Source: Babesia bovis T2Bo (lineage: Eukaryota; Apicomplexa; Aconoidasida; Piroplasmida; Babesiidae). Taken from it: DNA of 64,000 nucleotides. The notes below the pieces were generated by a model that worked only from the letters and a program-made list of their open reading frames with translations, did no database searches and was not told where the DNA came from. Position numbers and translations under genes: made by a program. Location: positions 620,001 to 684,000 of the forward strand of contig NC_067396.1 of the NCBI RefSeq assembly GCF_000165395.2, in the 5' to 3' direction. Position 1 is the stretch's first letter. Each line of letters opens with the position of its first letter. Positions 5,175-59,676 of the stretch are shown piece by piece.

Positions 5175-7223
5175 ATGCTTTCTGCAAGTGTGTTTCACCC
5201 TGTTGAGGGGATTGGGCATCGTCCTGGTTGTGTTCCTTTGATGAATGATTTTCCTGAAATGTGTTATATGCCTCAATTTCACGATATGGGTGCTTCAACA
5301 AATTCTTATACTGATTTTAATGGTGGTCCTATGGATACTGAGGCTGTTTTGTGGGATAGACGGGTATGGGACCAGGGTCAATATCCAGGACCTTCTGACT
5401 TATATAATAGTTATGATACCCAGATAGGATTCGTCAACACTGACCGGATTGTTCCTGTGGAGATGTTGGCTGAATACGCTCAGTATCATGAGCGTGTATC
5501 TGCACAGCAGCAAAAGGCTTTGGAGATTCAACATCAGCTTCAGCAGATGCATGCTCAGTATACTCAATACCAAGCCTTTTTGACTAATTTTCACTTACCT
5601 CATATTATGGAGATGGAGCTAAAGGGCAAGTATGGCTTAGGTGACCAGGGTTCACGCGGGGTTATGGGCAACGTCTTTGGTGGCAACTCCTCTCCAACTA
5701 CTCATTTCCACACCATGGGACAAATGTCTGAGACACTTCGGGAGCTACCGTACACTTTTTTCGCTGATGACAACACTGCACCTTGTTCTCCGGACCGCCA
5801 TTCATCATCCATAAGTTCTGAGACTACTCCCAATAACATGGACGTCCTCAATGGCATTTCGGGATATAGGGCTTTCCCTCAAAAACACAACCATGGTTAC
5901 AACAGTACTTTAGATTCTGTTGACATGGTTACAAAGCCTGTGGTATCACTGTGTTCCATGGCTAGTGTGAGCACTGTTGACTTGATGAACGACGAGGGGT
6001 ATCGCTCCATGGGCAATGGACTAGCTACAGACGATAGTGACAATACGTTTGACTTCACTCGCAAGCGTACGTTATCTATTGACGATCCTGTGGATTCAGC
6101 ACTGATCATTGGCAGCGATGAGAAACGTCAGAAGCCCACGGGTCCTAGTGATGTGAGCTTGGTACCAGATTCCTACCGTGTTAAGTACATATCCAATGGT
6201 AACAGAGCGGTTAAAACCCCTGCTTTTAGGCGCAGTGGCGCTAATGACTATCCAGTAAAAATGCCATCTAGTGAGCCACATTATAGTCGCATTCCATTTT
6301 CTGGTCCTAATGCCTTTATGACTGAGCCCATAATAGATGGTCAGATTAACCATGATTACTACCGTCGAGATTTTTACTCCAGGATGTCGCAGCATGGCTT
6401 GGACCATTTATTCCCAGAGCACAATATATCTTGCAACCCTGTTAGGATGGGTTGTGAACCGCTGTTCAATAATGTAAATGGTATATCTTGTAGCGCTGGT
6501 GCTACTCATGACCACAAGGAGGTTAGGAGTACTAACCTGGATAACATTAGCATAACTCCACGGAGGAACATTGACGATGACCTAGTCAATGGCAATCTAC
6601 GTTATCCTGGTGACAGTAATGATGAACATGACCTCACTAGTGAGATCTCTCCTTTTGGTCATGACCATACCGATCTTTGCGACACTCAAGATCAGGATAG
6701 CCTTAGTCCAAAAGAGCGCAAGTCGCATCGTCTGGCTGCCAAGAAATTATCATCCAATGTTTTCAAGGTTCGCAAGAAGATTGCTAGATCTTCCGAGGTG
6801 ATTCGTGAGCACCGTGAGATTGCTCAGCGTCTGAAGTCACTGGAGGTGGGTGGCATCATGGTAATTAAGAAGCGTCGGAGTCACCGGGACTCCCAAATAG
6901 AGATTAAGAAGTCCACTGATTTTTATGACTATCTTTTGGACATTCCTGTAACTGCTGAGCCCGATCCGGAGTTGGGTGTTCAGCAGTACAAGTGTTTAGT
7001 CCCTGGTGTCTACTGGGACAAGCGTTCTTGGATTGCCTCATGGTATGAAAACGGTATTCGTTGTTACAGCAGTTTTTCTGCGAAAATGCACGGGTTTTAC
7101 AAGGCAAAGTACTTTGCGATTCACGTTCGCATCTTTAAGACCAAAAACGCAGATTTTTATGACCCAGAGGCTGAGACGGAGCGATACCATATTTTAAGTC
7201 AATTAGGCGTTAAGAAATGTTAG
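5175..7223 (+). CDS. ApiAP2 DNA-binding protein
   Basis: Predicted nuclear transcription factor of the apicomplexan AP2 family, 682 residues in one exon. The single AP2 domain is near the C-terminus (about residues 606-655): PGVYWDKRSWIASWYENG, then a helix with FSAKMHGFYKAKYFA. A basic Lys/Arg-rich stretch at about 515-580 precedes it. The rest is low-complexity and rich in Ser, Asn and Asp, with a Gln-rich coiled segment near residues 95-135, as usual for ApiAP2 proteins. Start: the ATG at 5175 follows a T-rich acceptor-like run; the ATG at 5242 is an alternative. The target motif cannot be read from the sequence. Confident on family, not on which orthologue. Confidence 0.9.
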   Translation: MLSASVFHPVEGIGHRPGCVPLMNDFPEMCYMPQFHDMGASTNSYTDFNGGPMDTEAVLWDRRVWDQGQYPGPSDLYNSYDTQIGFVNTDRIVPVEMLAEYAQYHERVSAQQQKALEIQHQLQQMHAQYTQYQAFLTNFHLPHIMEMELKGKYGLGDQGSRGVMGNVFGGNSSPTTHFHTMGQMSETLRELPYTFFADDNTAPCSPDRHSSSISSETTPNNMDVLNGISGYRAFPQKHNHGYNSTLDSVDMVTKPVVSLCSMASVSTVDLMNDEGYRSMGNGLATDDSDNTFDFTRKRTLSIDDPVDSALIIGSDEKRQKPTGPSDVSLVPDSYRVKYISNGNRAVKTPAFRRSGANDYPVKMPSSEPHYSRIPFSGPNAFMTEPIIDGQINHDYYRRDFYSRMSQHGLDHLFPEHNISCNPVRMGCEPLFNNVNGISCSAGATHDHKEVRSTNLDNISITPRRNIDDDLVNGNLRYPGDSNDEHDLTSEISPFGHDHTDLCDTQDQDSLSPKERKSHRLAAKKLSSNVFKVRKKIARSSEVIREHREIAQRLKSLEVGGIMVIKKRRSHRDSQIEIKKSTDFYDYLLDIPVTAEPDPELGVQQYKCLVPGVYWDKRSWIASWYENGIRCYSSFSAKMHGFYKAKYFAIHVRIFKTKNADFYDPEAETERYHILSQLGVKKC

Positions 7224-8850: not shown

Positions 8851-10011
8851 TCAATGGTACAGCGCCTGCTCTATTTTACACCTACGTTCCACGTTTAATG
8901 TAATTTGGTCCAGTCTGTTAGACACTCTCTGTATTATGTCAGAGCTTGTCAAGGTGCATCCGGAGTCTATATGCTTTAGGATACCAATATCCCTTGCCAC
9001 TGCGTAGTTATCAAAGTCATCGATCATCAACGGGTCATCACTGTGGTTGCCCACTGCAACTAAGCTAACCTCTAGGTTTTCGAGGTAATTCTTAGATGGA
9101 ATGAATGGTGCTCCCATGATCACATCGTCGACATACTTCATTGCAAGTACAGTTAGTGCGCGGTCCATAAGGTGGTTGACTGGGAATGGATTCCCCTTGA
9201 TTGTCCGTACTGTTTGGTCGTCGTACAACCCAACTATTAGGTAATCTCCCAGTTCTTTAGCTCGTTGTAGGAATCTCAGGTGCCCTACATGGAACACGTC
9301 GAATGTACCATCGACATATATAACTTTAGCTCCATCAGGTTTGCAAGACATTGGGATAAACTTGGAAAACAGTGATGCGCGTGTTCTGCATCTTGGGAAT
9401 CTTACATGCATTTCATTTTTAGATGCCTTCTTTTCAATTTCATTAAACCCGTCGTCGGACAGCAAGTCCCGTGACATCTGCTCTTCATTTTGTGCTACTA
9501 GCGTCTCAAATTGAGCAATTGGGTCCTGGGCTATACCTGAGTTGGATGCAAAGTGGCTGAATCTGTCACTGCTCAGTGCTTCTACAAGCCTACCAAGGGT
9601 TGTAGATGTGCTGCATCCACGTGACCTTCGTACTGATACGAACAGCCCGGCATTTTTAATCTCCTCGTAACAATCTTTACCACTTGCTCCAATGGCCACG
9701 TCATCTCCATGTGCTACGACATCGCATTTGGCAACATCCTTGAGGAATTTTATTGTAACGTCATAGGGTGTATCCACAATAACATCGTCTACCCATCGGC
9801 ATCCACTTATAAGTTCCGCGCGCTCCTGTGAATTGTATATCGGTGCTATACCCTTAGTATCCTGGGTCTCCTTGTCCGATACTACACCAACTACTATTTT
9901 ACCTCCTAATTGATGTGCCTGGCGCAGTGCATTCAAATGCCCCCAATGGACCAAATCAAAAACGCCATCCACATATATTCTTCGGTGACTTGTCATATCT
10001 TGGTCTTCCAT
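8851..10011 (-). CDS. PCYT2: Ethanolamine-phosphate cytidylyltransferase
   Basis: Makes CDP-ethanolamine from CTP and phosphoethanolamine in the Kennedy pathway to phosphatidylethanolamine. One exon, 386 residues, with the family's two tandem cytidylyltransferase folds. The first has VDGVFDLVHWGH (HxGH at 22-25) and RSRGCSTSTT at about 129-138; the second has VDGTFDVFHVGH (HxGH at 241-244) but no clear RTxGxSTT box, so only the first is probably fully catalytic, as in other ECTs. The linker at about 150-225 is charged. Length matches the family (about 370-400). The start is the first ATG; a Met at residue 6 is an alternative. Confidence 0.95.
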   Translation of the reverse strand: MEDQDMTSHRRIYVDGVFDLVHWGHLNALRQAHQLGGKIVVGVVSDKETQDTKGIAPIYNSQERAELISGCRWVDDVIVDTPYDVTIKFLKDVAKCDVVAHGDDVAIGASGKDCYEEIKNAGLFVSVRRSRGCSTSTTLGRLVEALSSDRFSHFASNSGIAQDPIAQFETLVAQNEEQMSRDLLSDDGFNEIEKKASKNEMHVRFPRCRTRASLFSKFIPMSCKPDGAKVIYVDGTFDVFHVGHLRFLQRAKELGDYLIVGLYDDQTVRTIKGNPFPVNHLMDRALTVLAMKYVDDVIMGAPFIPSKNYLENLEVSLVAVGNHSDDPLMIDDFDNYAVARDIGILKHIDSGCTLTSSDIIQRVSNRLDQITLNVERRCKIEQALYH

Positions 10012-14464: not shown

Positions 14465-16045
14465 ATGGTCGGGTGTGTACACTTTTTAGCGTTAATTAAT
14501 TTCTACATATCAGTCCAGGCGGGTGTTCTATCACGTTACACCCCGTCTATTAGCGGTGTATTCCACGGACTTATCGCACCCAAACGACTGTCAATACGCC
14601 TAGAAGGCTGCAGCAATGATGCATTGATCTTGAAGGAACTGGAAGACAGAGGACTAGGGATATATGAGATTGATTATAACAATCCACGCAAAGTCAAGGC
14701 ACTGGTTAACGCCGTCAATGATATATACAACTCAAGGCACTACTTTGCCAGTAATGTACACAAATATCAAATAGGCACCAATGGGAACGCGGTTATATTA
14801 AAATGCGTGGAAAATGGCGTACCAGAGGCTAATTTCAAGTTATTCGTTTTTGACCCTGATAAGGGTACCGCCATTGATACCACTGGCATGGAGCTGGTAA
14901 CCAGCTCAAGCCATCGTATGAAGGATCTGAAATATCGAGAAGAACGTAGTGATAGATTAAAGGCAATGGTCTATAGTACCAAGAATGTACTTTTGAATCT
15001 TGATCCCGCCTTTTTCCGCAGCATCCAAAAGTTAGGTATCTGGAAAAACCTTGAATACACCATATGGCGCACCGCCGATGGACAATTACATATGCACTGT
15101 TATTGTGACGGCCCGGGTATCACCCGTACCGTGGATTACACGCTGTCCAACATCTTATCCAAAGAGGGCGCTAAGCTAAACATCGCACTTAGGGACAACG
15201 ACTTCTTAGGATCAGGGCTGCAGGCTGAGATAATGACTCAAGTTGGTTTGCGAGACTGGTATAAGATGTCGTCTAACCACACCATGAGCGCCAATATGAC
15301 CTATAACACATTGAAAAAGACCATGTGGTCAGATCGATCGGGTGATACAATGGCATTCACATTGGCATGTAATTGCGGAATGGATGATGTAATGCGCTTT
15401 GTAAAGCCAGGGGACGTAAATGAAGCGGGTGGTGGCTCCAAGAGTAGTGTAAAAGGTATTATGCTATTCAAGGCCGGTGCTACCCGCGGGAATGTAACCG
15501 TAGGACTTGATACCCGAACAATGCAATTCAGCACAGACACACAGTCAGAGATACGTAAGAGTCACAAGGTACCCATAGCCATCAAGCATACTTTATTGCT
15601 AAAATACCCACGGAAGGTACCACTCAACAGTAGTGCTTCCGATAATCTATATCTCAACTCCAAGGCATCGGCATCCACTGCACTGGGCGACTATAACATA
15701 GATATAGGATTGGGAATGGGCACCTCAACGGATAAAAGCGGGTTCCGAGGTAACCTAGCTGAAGGAAAGCGTTACCTCATGATAGCAGGCGATGTCACAC
15801 GCCAGTGGTCACAAAAACACCTGTGGAATACCATTAAACCAGGTGTGTTCCTGGATGTGCTGTACTCCATTAACGGCATGAACTACCCTCATGGCCGGCA
15901 TCACTTTGCCGTGTCCGCCGGTGTTATCGTCAGGGTGCTTGGAATTGCTATCGCAATATCACTTTCGGAAATCCCTCGTAATATGGGCAGTGGCTCAGCC
16001 GATCTCCTGAAATCACTACAGGAAAGTTTTTACGTATCAAGCTGA
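14465..16045 (+). CDS. Putative Omp85/Toc75-like outer-membrane translocon protein
   Basis: 526 residues, single exon. The N-terminus, MVGCVHFLALINFYISVQ, reads as a signal peptide and is followed by a basic Ser/Arg/Lys stretch, the layout of an apicoplast leader. Residues about 55-130 alternate like a POTRA fold. The remainder is rich in amphipathic beta-strands and Gly/Asn turns (IALRDNDFLGSGLQAEI, GNVTVGLDT, HHFAVSAGVIVRVLGI), as in Omp85 barrels. Apicomplexans are known to keep a divergent Toc75 in an outer apicoplast membrane, which is what this most resembles; identity is inferred from layout and not from an invariant motif. The start is 2 nt after the stop of the upstream gene, so its 5' UTR must overlap that gene. 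Confidence 0.45.
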   Translation: MVGCVHFLALINFYISVQAGVLSRYTPSISGVFHGLIAPKRLSIRLEGCSNDALILKELEDRGLGIYEIDYNNPRKVKALVNAVNDIYNSRHYFASNVHKYQIGTNGNAVILKCVENGVPEANFKLFVFDPDKGTAIDTTGMELVTSSSHRMKDLKYREERSDRLKAMVYSTKNVLLNLDPAFFRSIQKLGIWKNLEYTIWRTADGQLHMHCYCDGPGITRTVDYTLSNILSKEGAKLNIALRDNDFLGSGLQAEIMTQVGLRDWYKMSSNHTMSANMTYNTLKKTMWSDRSGDTMAFTLACNCGMDDVMRFVKPGDVNEAGGGSKSSVKGIMLFKAGATRGNVTVGLDTRTMQFSTDTQSEIRKSHKVPIAIKHTLLLKYPRKVPLNSSASDNLYLNSKASASTALGDYNIDIGLGMGTSTDKSGFRGNLAEGKRYLMIAGDVTRQWSQKHLWNTIKPGVFLDVLYSINGMNYPHGRHHFAVSAGVIVRVLGIAIAISLSEIPRNMGSGSADLLKSLQESFYVSS

Positions 16046-42744: not shown

Positions 42745-43803
42745 TTAAACACATTTTGTGTTCTCTTCACTTCCAGCATTGGATCTGGTTGAACCTATGT
42801 TTTCTAGGTTAGTTAAATTCACGGTTTCACCCTCGCGCAATATAATAAAATTCTTGCGTAAAGAAGGATTAACCACTTCGATATGGGCTTCCAGACGATT
42901 TAGCAGCTCACCGTAAGCTTCCCTACCTAAAGGGAAAGTGTCATACCCAACTGGTATGGTATACTTAGCTCCCAAGTCTATGTGAGCTTTTACCAACTCT
43001 TCAGGAGTCAACTCAGGACTGTGATGATATATAGGTCCCATCGGTAGAATGGCAATGTCGATAACGTGTCCGTTCTCTTTTAAAAAATCGTGAATCTCAC
43101 GAAAATGGCCACTGTAAGCTGTTCGACCGCCATAATAAAATGTTCTTGTGTTAGAACGTACAAAAAATGAACCCCAAAGAAGTAAGTCACGCCTGTGCCA
43201 GAAGCGACCACTATTTGAAAACGATGGTAAAAATGTCACCTCCACACTACCGAAGCTGACAGTTTCGTACCAACGAAGTGGATATGTATAACGATTAAAA
43301 AACATAATAACAAAACGTGATATGTTCATGCCACCAATGACTAATGCCGATCCTAGGTCGCCCAAACGGCGCATGCTAAAGGCATCGACACAACCAACTG
43401 AATTATTAGATAATAATACAAAATCCGTCATGGGACACTGCCAGTACTTGATGAGTCTGTTGGTCACTCGACGTAATCCAAAAATCGGGATGAAAAGACG
43501 ACGTGAAAATACGGGATCCGTCAAAAAAGAAGCGCCTCCAGTTTGAAAATAAACGGTTCTATGGCCCAAATAGGTTATACTAGATTCATCCTCAGGCACC
43601 GTAGACATGTTAATTGGCGCTGGGTCTACAGAAGATGGCCATTTTCCAAGAGGCTCACCCAGCAACGATCCTAGACAGGGAAACTTTCGACATAATAACA
43701 CAGCAGCCTTCTCTCTCAATCTCCCAGGATAGCGAGCAAGTAAATACCGCGATACATCACCACGGGCGTGCCATGGATCTAAAAACCAGGGCAATAGTCG
43801 CAT
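42745..43803 (-). CDS. NAPE-PLD-fold metallo-beta-lactamase pseudoenzyme
   Basis: 352 residues, single exon, following NAPE-PLD-type phospholipase D of the metallo-beta-lactamase fold: ITYLGHRTVYFQTGG (75-90), FLTDPVFSRR (93-102), LLWGSFFVRS (208-217), DIAILPMGPIYHHSPELTPEE (249-269), VGYDTFPL (285-292). The metal ligands are gone. The family's SHNHYDHLD is SNNSVGCVD (132-140), so every H/H/D/H position is changed. The second His box is SFSNSGR (194-200), the bridging Asp of AGDTGY is replaced in GGRTAY, and the last His (IHWGTF) is absent. The frame is intact, so this looks like a maintained non-catalytic protein, perhaps lipid-binding. Partner unknown. Confidence 0.78.
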   Translation of the reverse strand: MRLLPWFLDPWHARGDVSRYLLARYPGRLREKAAVLLCRKFPCLGSLLGEPLGKWPSSVDPAPINMSTVPEDESSITYLGHRTVYFQTGGASFLTDPVFSRRLFIPIFGLRRVTNRLIKYWQCPMTDFVLLSNNSVGCVDAFSMRRLGDLGSALVIGGMNISRFVIMFFNRYTYPLRWYETVSFGSVEVTFLPSFSNSGRFWHRRDLLLWGSFFVRSNTRTFYYGGRTAYSGHFREIHDFLKENGHVIDIAILPMGPIYHHSPELTPEELVKAHIDLGAKYTIPVGYDTFPLGREAYGELLNRLEAHIEVVNPSLRKNFIILREGETVNLTNLENIGSTRSNAGSEENTKCV

Positions 43804-45883: not shown

Positions 45884-46648
45884 TTAAGAAAAGGTCTTGA
45901 AAAGGTAATCACCTGTAGAAGAAGATGTCTGAGACATACCAGCACCGCCCTTCTGCCAGTTTACTGGGCATACCTGCCCAGATTCGTCGTTAAATTTAAT
46001 AGCGTCAAACACACGAAGGGTCTCGTCAACGGATCGACCAATACCCAAGTCAAAAACAGCCGTATGACGCACCTTACCGGTCTTGTCAATAAGTACAGAA
46101 GCACGTTGTGCAAAACCGTCGCTACGAAGAAGGCCAAAACTCTTGCTTATTGAACGTGATATATCAGACACTAATGGAATCTTTAGTCCCTGCACACCAC
46201 CCTTCTTCAAATCCATCTGAAGCCAAGCAAGATGAGAAAATACTGAGTCTATAGATATGCCAACTACCTTGATACCACGCTGCTCAAATTCAGGAAGTCT
46301 AGCGGAAAATCCCAAAAGCTCAGAAGGGCAAACAAAAGTGAAGTCCAACGGATAGAATACAAGCAACGCATACGAATCACGAAAATATGCAGAAGCGTCA
46401 AATTCGGTTATGTTTCCGTTGATCACAGCAGATGTTTTGAAATCAGGGAACTCGCGTCCAACAAGATCTCCTATATTAGTATGGCAGCTACCGGCCTGTG
46501 TACCGAATGCCCGTACAACGAACTGGTTGTACACAGGCCTAAAGCAACGCACACTGTCGTTATTGAGCCATCCGGTAGTTTTGTTAGATAGCATTCGCAT
46601 GGCCCTGTAGGCTGAAGCAGTAGGTAGACGCAACACACCGTTCATCAT
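45884..46648 (-). CDS. 2-Cys peroxiredoxin (mitochondrial type)
   Basis: Thioredoxin-dependent peroxidase that reduces H2O2. 254 residues from the ATG at 46648; the frame is open further upstream but those codons show no leader-like or domain sequence. Residues 1-50 are basic, Ser/Arg-rich and free of acids until late, as in a mitochondrial presequence. Peroxidatic Cys107 is in YPLDFTFVCPSELLGF, resolving Cys227 in GQVCPVNW. The GGLG loop of oxidation-sensitive enzymes is not seen (DGFAQRASVLID instead), so a robust type is suggested. Plasmodium has a mitochondrial TPx of this layout. Confidence 0.92.
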   Translation of the reverse strand: MMNGVLRLPTASAYRAMRMLSNKTTGWLNNDSVRCFRPVYNQFVVRAFGTQAGSCHTNIGDLVGREFPDFKTSAVINGNITEFDASAYFRDSYALLVFYPLDFTFVCPSELLGFSARLPEFEQRGIKVVGISIDSVFSHLAWLQMDLKKGGVQGLKIPLVSDISRSISKSFGLLRSDGFAQRASVLIDKTGKVRHTAVFDLGIGRSVDETLRVFDAIKFNDESGQVCPVNWQKGGAGMSQTSSSTGDYLFKTFS

Positions 46649-47712
46649 GATGACTGATTTAACATATGCAATCAAAATATATATCCCACAAAACTTGTGT
46701 ATAAAGTTGTTAGTAATAAGTGTGTGAGGCTCTAAGCGGCAATAACGGACCATATGAGGAGGATTCCATCCCCAGAGCGGAATATAAACCACATTACATA
46801 TGTACATTAGTATACTCAATTTGTGGAATTCTGTTGAAATATTATCTCTTTTATGGACTGCAATTACTCTAAATGTGTATTGACGATATATCATGTAAAT
46901 TGACCTCGTTATCAGTTCAATTTTTTAGGAACAAACAAAAAATTGCCAATGGTGTATATAGCAACGATTACACAATTTAATCAATGGTTATATCTGTTGT
47001 AAGTGTTGCTCAACATCTTGCAGAATAGGATTCACTTTTTTAAATAAGGATTTTCGGGTGGAAGTTAACCTTTCCGGTGTCGTTGAAATATCCAAGCAAC
47101 TTGAATTGTCATGTCTTCGTAACTGTATGTTAACACAGGTTCATATTTTATCATACAACAATAGATTAAATGTAATGGATACGTAAAAATAGTGGTATTT
47201 ATGACTGAAGTTTAATCAGGCTACATAAACGAACTCAATTTGATGAAATATGAACGCCTTTCCTTGACCATCATTATTCACTTTTGATTTTCTTTGAATT
47301 AAATCCAAATTAGATAACACGGCTCCAAAATATAACGGGGAACAATAATGTCCATTGTATACACTATATAACTTAATGCCTGCCCTCATGTCATAAGTTT
47401 GATGAAAGGAATTAGCGACTGAACGGAAAGGAATACGGATATATTTTAGAAGGATGGCAGTTTAAAATATAGTTAAGAAGATATACCCATTGCTACTCTT
47501 ACTCCCATCGGCCGAATTTACAAGTGGCAAAAGGATCGACAGAATTTTTACAGACCTATTAGTCTTGGTCAGCATTTAGGACAGTACAACTTGCCGTCAT
47601 ATTGGCGCATTACGTGGGTGGAGTCATGCGGGACTTCAACGTTATTTTCAGCACCACCTAGAAAATACACCGGCAATGCCACTGCTATTGCATTAATTTC
47701 ACCACCCCTACA
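46649..47712. other. Gene-poor stretch at the left edge of the ves island
   Basis: About 1.06 kb. Most is AT-rich without supported genes. From 47477 a plus-strand frame stays open into the antisense of the ves1-beta last exon; its first 60 codons (for example GRIYKWQKDRQNFYRPISLG and YNLPSYWRITWVESCG) look protein-like but have no start, splice partner or family that I recognise. It may be a gene fragment left at the island border. Confidence 0.4.
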
Positions 47713-52135: not shown

Positions 52136-55100
52136 ATGGCCCTGAAAAACGCTTTCACGCCGAAGGCGTCACTAACCGACGCTCCCACCAACCTGAAGGA
52201 GGCCATTGACTGGGTCCTGAGGGTAACTGGTAAGGATGGTAACAATAACAATGGAGGTACGTTACTGTAGACACATAGATAGTATGCGCGCCCGTGGAGA
52301 TGTTACCTGACACTGTCCATTACAGTGGCGCGCCCAGTACTATAGAACTTACTTTGATACAGAATGTATATGTGGCCTGGCGGCGGCAGTGACTGACCTC
52401 CTGCAGTCAGTAGAACTACAGTACCATGGTAAGTAACCAGTACTAGAAGTAGTACTATCTAGTACCACTACTGGTATACAGTACCTCATGGTGTCCTATA
52501 GGCTATCAAGGTGATTCCAATGGCAGTGGTAAAGGTGGCCCCCCCAAAAAGAGAGTCACAGAGTGCCTTAATGGACTATTCTCTCTAGTCCAGGGACTAG
52601 GTGGCACTGCAGTGGTCCGGACCTACATAGACCAGTTGGCACAGGTACTCAGTGCACTCGTTGGGTGGAGTAAGATAGATAAGTGTTGGGGCAGTGGTGA
52701 CAGTGAGAAGTGCAAGGGTGGTGGTAGTAGCAATGAACACGGCGAAAAGACTGGCTGCGAGTATCTACAGGATGTAAAGCATGAGAACAAGTGTGATGCA
52801 TGTGGATGTATGAAATGGAATGTGACCAATGCGGACAACGAAGGAACACCGCTGGGCAGGAAGTGTACAAGGTGTAGTGATAGTGGTAGTAGTGCTCATA
52901 GGTGTAGCTGTAATACTGGTGGCAGCAGCACCTGTACTGCTGAGACTTGCAAATGCGCTTTAGCAGGCAAATGCTGCAAGTGTTATTGTAAGGGAAAGGG
53001 GTGTGGATGTAAGGATGCCAAGTGTAGTTGTGATAAGGAAATGAAGGACGAGGACAGCTATTTATCAGCTTATCGCAAGCGAAATACCAGCTGGGTTGAT
53101 GGTGGAATCAGGGCCACTTGGTTGAATCTGGAGGAAGTTCCTTACAGTGGCTATCCAGTGACCCCCTCCCAACGTCGCCACCACTGTGCCCGCATCCTAC
53201 TAGGCTCAGTATGTCTCATTTGGAGTGGGCTCACGTATATGTATTGGACTGGAAAGTACCATAAAAGTAGTCCCCGATGGAACAATCACATCTTGGATGG
53301 TAGTGGTCTAGATGATGGTACCCTATCCCAATGGCTCCAGGCCCTAGGGTTTCCTAGGAAAATGTTGAATAACCATGGTCCTAGAAATAGGTGGGATGCA
53401 GTTATATGGGATGGGATTAGGGGTATGTTATATTTGGGATTCCCGCATACCAGTTACAATGCTGCCCATGGCAGTGACCATGATGATAATACATTCAGAC
53501 AACCGGCTGGTATGAACTATGCTGGATATATACATACCGTAGACAGGGGTGCATTTGATAGTAGTGTCTTTAAGGGCACTGGTGACACTAAAATTGACAA
53601 GAACAAACAAGGTGCCCTCTTCAAGCTCTACATTCTATCATGCGCCTATTTTACTGGATTGCAGAAGAAGACTAATACTCAGACCACTACCAGTACCACT
53701 CCTAGGACCATCCGTGAGATCCTCTACTGGCTCAGTGCACTGCCCTATAGTCCGGCATATAAGGATATGCTGGACTATGCTAAGGAGAGACTCAAGAAAG
53801 AAGCACCAGATGTTGGAGGCAAAAGGCAACTTTCGTTCTACCAACAAGGCCGTAATGCGCCCATCACAGTTGATGAATACAACCTTTTTGCCCACTTCCA
53901 AGCAGTGACTCAGTATTGCCCACTGGTCCTCATAGGTATCCAGGGTGGATTACACAGTACTAAAGGCACTGACAAGACTACAGAACCACCTATCCATTCA
54001 CTCTACGCTAACACTGAATGCCACTTCACCTACCCAGAAGTTAAGATTCAAGCATACAACCAGGTGGTCCACTACATTAGGGCTCTATTCTACCAACTCT
54101 ATTTCCTTAGGAAGCAATGTGCCGTGAAGGTTGCTCTAGGAGGTAAATGGCGTGAGTGTAGGTATGGTAATGGGGTAGTCTCCAAGGGGGTGATCAGCTG
54201 GATGTGCCTGGGGTGTAACCCCATGGAACATGATAGGAAAAAGAGGGTTGATAAGGTAAAGGAGGGATTAGTGGGGGTGAAGGAGAGTGATAAGCTCGCA
54301 GGGGGGCTAAAAACATTATTGGAAAAGATTGGTGAGGTGGTGGTACAGTTGGGTAATGCCCAGGAGGAATTGGAAAAGAGTGGTGGTAATGTGAATATTG
54401 CACTAGCGGCAGTAAAGAAAGTATCAGGGGTGAATGGGAGTGATCTAAAGGGGGTACTAGAGAAGGTGCTAGATGTAGTACTGGGGGTAGTGGAGAAACT
54501 AGTGGAGGGGGTGAAGGAAAAGGTGAAGGCACTAGAGGAGATAAAGAAGACACTAGAGGCGGCTAAGGAGAAACTAGAGGAGGCTAAGAAAACTCAGGAG
54601 GCACTAGAGGCGGCTAAAGGGGAACTAGAGGGGGCTAAGGGGGCACTAACGACGGCTAAGAAGGCGTTTCCCGGTAGTAGTAGTGATATTGATCCATGTA
54701 AGAACATAGTGAGTGCTACTATCGATGGGCTACACAAGGCATTACAGCTGTTGAAGGACGCAGTCCAACAGATCATGGAAGCAACAAGGAAAGATACGAC
54801 AGAGTTCCAAGATGCCATTTTTTCTGCTACTTATACAGCAGACGTAGTTACTGAAGTTGAGAAACATCAAGCAAAACAGAAGGTAACATTGGATGCATTA
54901 TCGACGCTCGTCTCAGCCATAGAAGACCTCCTCTCCATCTGCAACACTCCCAAGTGCCCTGGATGTACAAAACACAGCGACAAGTGTGGCCAACCACCAA
55001 AGCCCACTGTCTGTCAGACCTGCCTCCAACCCACTACCACTGGTGTCCCCTCCCCCCTCCAGGCCTTCCTCGAGGATCGGTTACCAGGCTTTAGTTGTAA

Positions 55101-56394
55101 AGAGGTACCGGACACCGAGAATCCAGAGTACCCTCCTGCAGCATCCCACCTACGACACTGTGGTGGTTCCGGCCAGTGCTGCCCATTGCCAATGGGTTTT
55201 AGAGGGCAATTCCATGAGGGCAGCATCCGTGATTGTACCGGCCAACGCCTTTATGGCATCCTCTACTTCTTTAGTAACGAGAACATGATGCAGTCATGTG
55301 TTTATACATTGGTGAGAGTTACAGCAGCTCTCAGTGCCACTACACCACAGGTATTGGGTGATGTCTTTGGGTTCTTTAGGGGTGGTGTGGGAAACAAGGA
55401 AAGGGGGAAGCCACAGAAGGGAGAGGAGACCAGTTGTGAGCACACAGGTAATCCTAGTGAGTCCTCTGAGGCTAACAAGAGTAAATACTTTTGCGGCTGG
55501 TGTGCCTCTGGGTTACGTGATGAGGTAAAGAAGATAGAGTGGATCCAAAAGATAACGGGTGGTGACGACTACAGGGAGAGTGTCGGTAAAGCGTTAAGAG
55601 ATATTAAGGGCAGTGACAGCACTGCTACTACCACTGCATATTCCAGCACTGGTACCACCACTACTTCCCTCTCGGCACTGACCAAGGACTCAGAATACCT
55701 CTCCCCCCTAACCGGTGAACTCTATACAGCAGTGAGTGCCACATTCGGTAACACATACCTCTCATGGGTACTCTATCTATCAGATGCACTTCATTGGGGA
55801 TTACAGTCACTGTCTGAGGCATTCCAACAGATTGAATGCCGTGGCTGTAGAGACTGTGACCCCAATAAGTGCAAGAAGGGGAGTCATGGTGGGACGGATA
55901 GTGCACAATGTAACTGCTCTTCAATCGTATCATGTACCGGGGTACTGCCGGTGTTGTATAGACATGGCTTCAGTTATGGTAACCCATTCAATCTGGAGGG
56001 GTACCAGCAGAAGGAAAAGGACGAGGGAGATTATAGTATTACAGACACGAAGAGTACTAAGAAGTGCCATCAATTCTTGGACAGTCTCAGTGCAGTGATC
56101 AATAAGAAGAAGGAATCCGATCAGAAGGACCAGGACAACCACCCCCTCACCAACCTCCTCTCCCAGGTCGGTAAACTCCAATACGACATACGGCTCCCCT
56201 GGATCTTTGTACTGACCATAGCCTGGCTAGTAGCGGTACTCTACCTTGCCTTTGGAGCCATATGGCCACTGGACTGGACACATATGAGGTCACACTGGTT
56301 ACGGGGTGGAGAACACCAGTGGCAATGTATGTGGTATAAGGTGATGACGGGACGTAAAGGAATGGAACTGGTGGAGTATTTTGGTAGGAGGTAG
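52136..56394 (+). CDS. ves1-alpha-type variant erythrocyte surface antigen, 3 exons
   Basis: Predicted VESA1a-type subunit. Exons 52136..52256, 52363..52428 and 52502..56394; introns 106 and 73 nt; 1359 residues. Two introns is the layout reported for B. bovis ves1-alpha. The start shares the N-terminal block with the beta gene. Residues about 124-240 are a Cys/Lys-rich domain (for example CKCYCKGKGCGCKDAKCSC). About 641-789 is a Lys/Glu/Ala heptad-rich coiled coil whose coding strand is almost free of C. The rest aligns block by block with the beta protein. A single TM (LPWIFVLTIAWLVAVLYLAF, about 1294-1318) and a short basic cytoplasmic tail follow. No signal peptide is seen, as usual for VESA1. 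The frame is intact. Confidence 0.9.
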
Positions 56395-58045: not shown

Positions 58046-59676
58046 ATGTCCTTAGCACACTCTATAGGACGGAATAAACAAAGGATATCGCCAAATGTGA
58101 AGTTGTCGGAGTTGACGTTGCGGTAAGCCTTTTTTGGCCCCTTTATAGTATACAGTAAGGATATAGATGATTCGTCGACTGATACAGTACTGATTCTAAG
58201 AAATACTTCATCTGCCAACAGTGTTAGCTTCTTGACAATACATTAAAATACTTTCCAGCATCCTACCACTGATATAATTATAAATGTTCACAGTGGTATT
58301 TTACGAGTCGCATCTCCTTTTTTCATGCGTTTTTTCAATGAGACAGATAAATTTGGACTGCAGACTGACGACGCTAATGCTTCATCTGACCAGTTTCTGT
58401 ACACTCTTTCCACATGTCACCCATATGCTGTGCAAAGGATAATATATTACATTTATAAGTACGTTTTATTTTACCCTTTTATCGAACCATAGGAATGATT
58501 ATCAAAATCTCAACGAGGATGCCGGGTTATTGGTTCCTATATATCAAGAAGCGGGTCGCTTTGAATTAACCGAGTTGAAACACAGTGTATTGCGTCTTAT
58601 ACGCAGTCAACACAATATAGAGGTTTTGGTGAACTTATCGTATGCTGCCGAATGTGGTGGTGATGTGGAACTGGCACAGGAGTGCGGTAGATTGCTCGCC
58701 GACGCAGCGTTTGCGGTCTTTTCATGCGACCTATTGAAGAAGATGGGAATTTCTGCTGTTAGGACGTTGCTAGCATGTGATAACATTCAACTGGATGAAG
58801 TGCAAACGTTTACAGTACTGTGTCAATTTCTTGATCAAAACAACAAGTTTGTAACCCCGTACTCGTCTTTGCCTCTTGGCCCTATAGAAAAGGTTGTTTT
58901 TATGAATGGAAACATAATTGCTACTTCAGGATTTCTTGAAACACATACGATTTTGTTCACTGTCACCAAAGTCCATTGATCGAATAAGACATGACAACAT
59001 CAGTCCGCTCTTACTTGACGCAGTCCTTCGAATATTGCAGGGCACTCAAAAACGCCCTAGGCATTTTCCGTGGCTTGAGAACGACTGTTACAGTTGTTTG
59101 ACATATAATGGTCTCTTCCCTGTGGTGACTGTACGGGCATCTAAGGAACAGTTGGGATTTTTTGATCCCAACACTGGCAATGCAAAACTTGTTTCTCCAC
59201 CAATTTCCCAATTACCAGTAGATTCCGGAAATCGGGAAAGCTTTACTACGGGAACTGAACGAGAAATCAGCATTGGATGGTGGGCATATGAAGTCTCAAG
59301 AACGGAGAAAGGGCGTATTTCTGTTGGTTTAGCCTTCAGGTCGCAAGAGCCCATTGATGAGGCTTCGCGATTGTCTTTCTTATCTATGCCGAATTCTAGA
59401 AGAATTGTATTCTACTACGATTTTGGAGATGACAGATTCAAATCTGGTTATATAGACGTTACTAATCATCACCAGTTGAACTCTGTTTGGTCTTATGATT
59501 TAAGATTAAACAGCAATGCACACAAACTAAGGCATAAAGATGTGATCACAGTCAATGTGATAGTAGCCACATCTTGCATTACATTGAACATCGGAGTCCT
59601 TGACAGTGGAATGAAACGCACATTTCAGATTCCTCATCGCGCTACGGTAGGAATGTTACGGATAATCATAACATAA
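58046..59676 (+). CDS. BTB-BACK domain protein
   Basis: Exons by inference 58046..58122, 58156..58222, 58259..58458, 58493..58892 and 58930..59676; introns 33, 36, 34 and 37 nt; 496 residues. BTB fold from about residue 48: TTDIIINVHSGILRVASPFF, then YAVQRIIYYIYKND and a last helix (ELKHSVLRLIRSQ). BACK region at about 120-230 with KHIRFCSLSPKSIDR closing it. The C-terminal 250 residues are beta-rich (WENDCYSC region, FYYDFGDDRFKSGYID) and match no propeller that I recognise. Likely a substrate adaptor for a cullin-3 ligase, by family. The first exon start (ATG 58046) is uncertain. A minus-strand frame of 92 codons lies opposite exons 1-2. Confidence 0.75.

Follow-up and report, generated by a model that had tools for sequence, protein, structure and literature searches.

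Within a window of 64,000 nucleotides from Babesia bovis T2Bo (contig NC_067396.1, positions 620,001 to 684,000), we analysed a minus-strand gene whose product is predicted to keep the metallo-β-lactamase (MBL) fold of NAPE-hydrolysing phospholipase D (NAPE-PLD), but which differs from the human enzyme in retaining neither His321 nor any of the seven zinc ligands. Comparison with orthologues and with more distant relatives showed that this loss is targeted at the metal site, beyond chance. Because an arginine stands at the bridging position and none of the ligands is left, zinc hydrolysis is, as judged from the sequence, almost certainly gone. We tentatively favour the view that the protein is a metal-free lipid-binding pseudoenzyme, in which the invariant arginine would hold a phosphate where the two zincs sat; a role as a pure scaffold is close to this in weight, and we give less credence to a new metal site.

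A NAPE-PLD-like protein encoded by a single intact frame

As the original prediction of a long intact frame had held, the gene runs without internal stops from an ATG at 43803 to a TAA at 42745, comprising 352 codons and the stop (Table 1). An in-frame stop lies upstream of the ATG, with four codons in between, and the start MRLLPWF is common to all six full-length family members (the window protein and five orthologues), which measure 333-357 amino acids. A six-frame search of the genome gave one full-length copy.

By sequence, the protein belongs to PF12706 (Lactamase_B_2), with 37.9 bits against a curated cut-off of 27, and it matches NAPE-PLD with an E-value of 1.7e-16. Human NAPE-PLD (PDB 4qn9, 8p90) was its best match in both sequence and fold, and the structure prediction that had been proposed as a check returned a fold nearer to NAPE-PLD than to other MBL folds. 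The landmarks LGHxT, LTDPxFS, LWGS and PEE-V are shared with the human enzyme, so that the resemblance first seen by eye is borne out by the alignment and by the Pfam match; the loop ahead of the His321 position is four residues shorter than in the human protein. The alignment of the model to human NAPE-PLD starts at residue 8 or 11 of the window protein, although residues 1-27 of the model have a predicted local distance difference test (pLDDT) score below 50. The NAPE-PLD-like part thus seems to start almost at the methionine, and a classical signal peptide would therefore have no room.

Loss of the metal and active-site residues

We take His185, His187, Asp189, His190, His253, Asp284 and His343 of NAPE-PLD to be its metal ligands and His321 to be an active-site residue, with human positions counted along the alignment of the window protein to human NAPE-PLD. 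In this alignment, SNNSVGCVD (132-140) stands for SHNHYDHLD, SFSNSGR (194-200) for SQHWCKR, GGRTAY (225-230) for AGDTGY and PVGYDTF (284-290) for MAIHWGTF. All of the altered motifs quoted in the original prediction, together with its missing last histidine, are thereby recovered, and His321, which was absent from its list, is likewise replaced, by Glu264. The window protein retains none of the seven zinc ligands and does not carry the enzyme motif of NAPE-PLD.

We then compared the family, defined as seven proteins (the window protein and six orthologues), with a set of 29 other relatives (P0008-P0036). Four replacements are fixed in the family, namely Asn133 for His185 (7/7), Ser196, Arg227 and Glu264, the last three being absent from these positions in all 29 relatives; the nearby Asp288 is also invariant in the family (7/7) and occurs there in 0/29 relatives. 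Elsewhere in the site the replacing residue differs between members: His187 has become Ser, Thr or Ala, and His190 has become Cys, Thr or Ser, while Asp189 is Gly in three of the seven and is kept as Asp in the other four. The relatives, in contrast, have the expected His or Asp at the site columns in 29/29 cases, except at the His343 column (28/29). Every one of the seven family sequences lacks at least seven of the eight site residues, as expected of a pseudoenzyme that has kept its fold and lost its catalytic residues.

Outside Babesia, 26 columns are conserved in at least 28 of the 29 relatives, the start methionine being excluded. None of the eight metal or active-site columns was unchanged in all family sequences, as compared with 16 of the 18 other columns (Fisher p = 2.9e-5), the two exceptions being Glu to Pro175 and Tyr to Ile or Val258. 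Thus, we conclude that the loss was aimed at the metal site.

Maintenance of the protein and order of loss

The original prediction had posed the question whether the ligands are lost in all orthologues. They are lost in all six orthologues found, apart from the Asp189 position, where four members (B. gibsoni, B. divergens, B. caballi and P0007) still have the Asp, which is changed in B. bovis, B. ovis and B. bigemina. The refuting case of orthologues with canonical residues and decay in the window protein alone was tested and is not what we see. These last three group together with modest fork support (90/73), and because the change is restricted to their lines, the Asp189 equivalent was probably the last to go. 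In a tree of 36 rows the family forms one group (100/100) with a stem of 2.74 changes per column, a length inflated by a tree that has no canonical apicomplexan NAPE-PLD and that includes the distance to apparently bacterial relatives, and with tips of 0.06-0.22.

This restricted change and the variable loop 135-138 could be taken as signs of a gene on its way out, which we consider very unlikely on protein-level grounds. Against decay, the six full-length members have kept their length and an identical start, and 129 of the 256 core columns (residues 75-330) are invariant across the family. Moreover, the window protein is 73% identical to its counterpart in B. ovis, 68% in B. caballi and 63% in B. 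divergens, as compared with 78%, 73% and 71% for phosphoethanolamine cytidylyltransferase, the one enzyme, encoded in the same window, that served as yardstick. Protein-level conservation therefore comes close to that seen for an enzyme presumed to be active, and the earlier view that the protein is maintained agrees with these figures and with the intact frames. The yardstick frame itself contains two cytidylyltransferase stretches, belongs to phosphatidylethanolamine synthesis and lies about 33 kb from the NAPE-PLD-like gene.

Two protein searches returned no Theileria or B. microti name among their 20 and 31 matches (the second with the best 7998 candidates scored), a scope that a strongly diverged copy would escape. 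In the same database the cytidylyltransferase was found in four named Theileria species and in B. microti; Babesia sp. Xinjiang and B. ovata are likewise among its matches and absent from the 20 matches of the NAPE-PLD-like protein. One scan of prokaryote genome contigs gave no relatives of the window protein.

The closest named relative is that of B. ovis. Its record, like those of B. caballi and B. bigemina, is labelled hydrolase, while B. gibsoni has a ribonuclease Z/hydroxyacylglutathione hydrolase-like name and B. divergens a hypothetical or MBL-domain protein. The three hydrolase labels should not be read as a sign of activity: pathway maps built on them would credit these species with N-acylethanolamine synthesis, which is almost certainly impossible for this protein.

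What the site may do now

NAPE-PLD is described as having a putative substrate site in the form of a large hydrophobic nook with channels (PMC12214272), and since zinc hydrolysis is almost certainly lost, we favour a lipid binder. In such a protein no phospholipase activity would remain; Arg227, together with Asn133 and Ser196, would receive the head group of a phospholipid in an anion site, and in the empty site Glu264 or Asp288 would pair with Arg227. The protein would be cytosolic, at a membrane surface, because reading the sequence by eye, with no signal predictor applied, shows no signal peptide. Basic charge and an aromatic-rich predicted helix give hints in the same direction. The median isoelectric point is 9.1 in the family against 7.3 in the relatives, with overlapping ranges, and residues 161-172 hold four to five aromatic residues in the seven family members as compared with zero to three in the 29 relatives, with a mean hydropathy of 0.47 against -0.28, again with overlap. 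In the model, helix 163-172 is a candidate for a face that could turn to lipid or membrane. Membrane anchoring by plain hydropathy was considered and rejected, the mean over residues 159-178 being like that of the relatives.

With somewhat less assurance, we consider it possible that a metal-free receptor for phospholipids was derived in Babesia from a phospholipase of the NAPE-PLD type, the arginine having entered the two-zinc seat on the Babesia stem and then been frozen, so that a lipid sensor or carrier arose from a dead hydrolase.

Several observations weigh against lipid binding. Conservation near the former site is not significantly raised: 29 of the 50 residues within four residues of it are invariant, as compared with 100 of 206 in the rest of the core, and 51 of 256 circular shifts equal this. 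Residues 135-138 vary within the family, the location given to Arg227 and its partners is read from the alignment, and a phosphate could be repelled by the acidic residues Glu264 and Asp288 close to the site. Mean hydropathy over residues 159-178 is alike in the family and in the relatives (-0.03 and -0.09), and the pLDDT falls below 50 in residues 1-27 and 200-208 and averages 64 in residues 161-170.

That conservation is not significantly raised around the site favours a pure scaffold, a possible reading that we rate a little lower. Here the fold would persist to offer a partner protein a binding surface, a role proposed for CPSF100 and INTS9, and a salt bridge of Arg227 with Glu264 or Asp288 would only plug the empty metal site. 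There is precedent for such a scaffold, since yeast CPSF100 is described as being without active-site metal, human CPSF100 can pair with CPSF73, and the inactive INTS9 pairs with INTS11 (PMC4819959). The partners of CPSF100 and INTS9 are, however, active paralogues, and no other NAPE-PLD-like protein was found when we searched the genome (8.2 Mb, 8 contigs) in six frames, exon by exon, a design that a much-divided gene could escape, with the window protein and the intact relative P0009 as queries. With P0009 the window gene was the sole match at E-values up to 1. The window protein gave one further weak match of 66 residues (E 0.02), which we rejected as a second NAPE-PLD-like gene, its frame looking like a membrane transporter. 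No active paralogue of the same branch was thus seen. Three Pfam MBL families match elsewhere in the genome. Judged by reading, the other MBL-like frames presumably represent an RNA-processing MBL nuclease, tRNase Z, glyoxalase II and an RNA-processing MBL protein in pieces.

It is unlikely that the protein is a re-purposed enzyme, with a different metal site or with metal-free catalysis through Glu264, Asp288, Asp140, Ser196 and Arg227. All five residues are invariant (7/7), and the absence of Glu264, Asp288, Ser196 and Arg227 from the relatives, as given above, speaks for such a site; yet neither His nor Cys is found among the invariant core residues that are specific to the family, and an arginine at the bridging position would disfavour a cation.

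Other features of the window

The window holds housekeeping genes as well as a frame with a VESA1_N domain (variant erythrocyte surface antigen; E 1.4e-176). A peroxiredoxin frame (AhpC-TSA) has about 140 residues ahead of its domain, possibly a targeting extension or upstream read-in, and a frame of 682 amino acids with an AP2 domain near its C-terminus is likely an ApiAP2 factor. Two further long frames had zero Pfam matches at E 0.001.

Table 1. Positions of the NAPE-PLD-like gene, of its sites and of other frames in the window
Feature	Position	Strand	Basis or detail
NAPE-PLD-like gene, MBL-fold protein (Pfam PF12706)	42745..43803	minus	single intact frame, 352 aa
N-terminal FLDPW, residues 7-11	43771..43785	minus	F-x-[ND]-P-W in 6/6 full-length family members
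Former HxHxDH box, residues 133-140 NNSVGCVD	43384..43407	minus	alignment
Aromatic-rich predicted helix, residues 163-172	43288..43317	minus	model and family comparison
Second His box, residues 193-200 PSFSNSGR	43204..43227	minus	His253 to Ser196, 7/7
Bridging-Asp loop, residues 226-230 GRTAY	43114..43128	minus	Asp284 to Arg227, 7/7
Residues 262-268 SPELTPE	43000..43020	minus	His321 to Glu264, 7/7
Residues 286-290 GYDTF	42934..42948	minus	His343 to Gly in window protein, Ala in 6/7
Phosphoethanolamine cytidylyltransferase frame	8851-10011	minus	conservation yardstick
AP2-domain frame	5175-7223	plus	682 aa
Long frame	14465-16045	plus	
Peroxiredoxin frame (AhpC-TSA)	45884-46894	minus	
VESA1_N domain frame	52612-56394	plus	
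Long frame	58918-59676	plus	

Comparison with known systems

Pseudoenzymes of the MBL fold are already known. CPSF100, which is described as lacking key catalytic residues, and the inactive INTS9 have retained the fold (PMC4819959), as the Babesia protein is predicted to have done; they differ from it in belonging to the RNA-processing branch and in being partners of an active paralogue. Among the listed titles and abstract openings of our literature search, neither a dead NAPE-PLD nor this Babesia protein is described. Yeast Fmp30p is, like the window protein, a divergent NAPE-PLD relative with a different job, but it is described as an active phosphatidylinositol hydrolase that has HxHxDH, and a single His to Asn change in this motif gives a dead protein (PMC13392021). 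A Babesia-wide pseudoenzyme of the NAPE-PLD type with an arginine in place of the metal would illustrate the route from a lipid hydrolase to a lipid binder or a scaffold. Toxoplasma GRA66 (TGGT1_320490), also an apicomplexan protein of the NAPE-PLD family, is reported to carry HxHxDH and to reside in dense granules and the vacuole (PMC10128063), whereas the Babesia protein, compared with it by description only, is without the motif and shows no obvious signal peptide; the two form a pair for comparison, one with the motif and one without.
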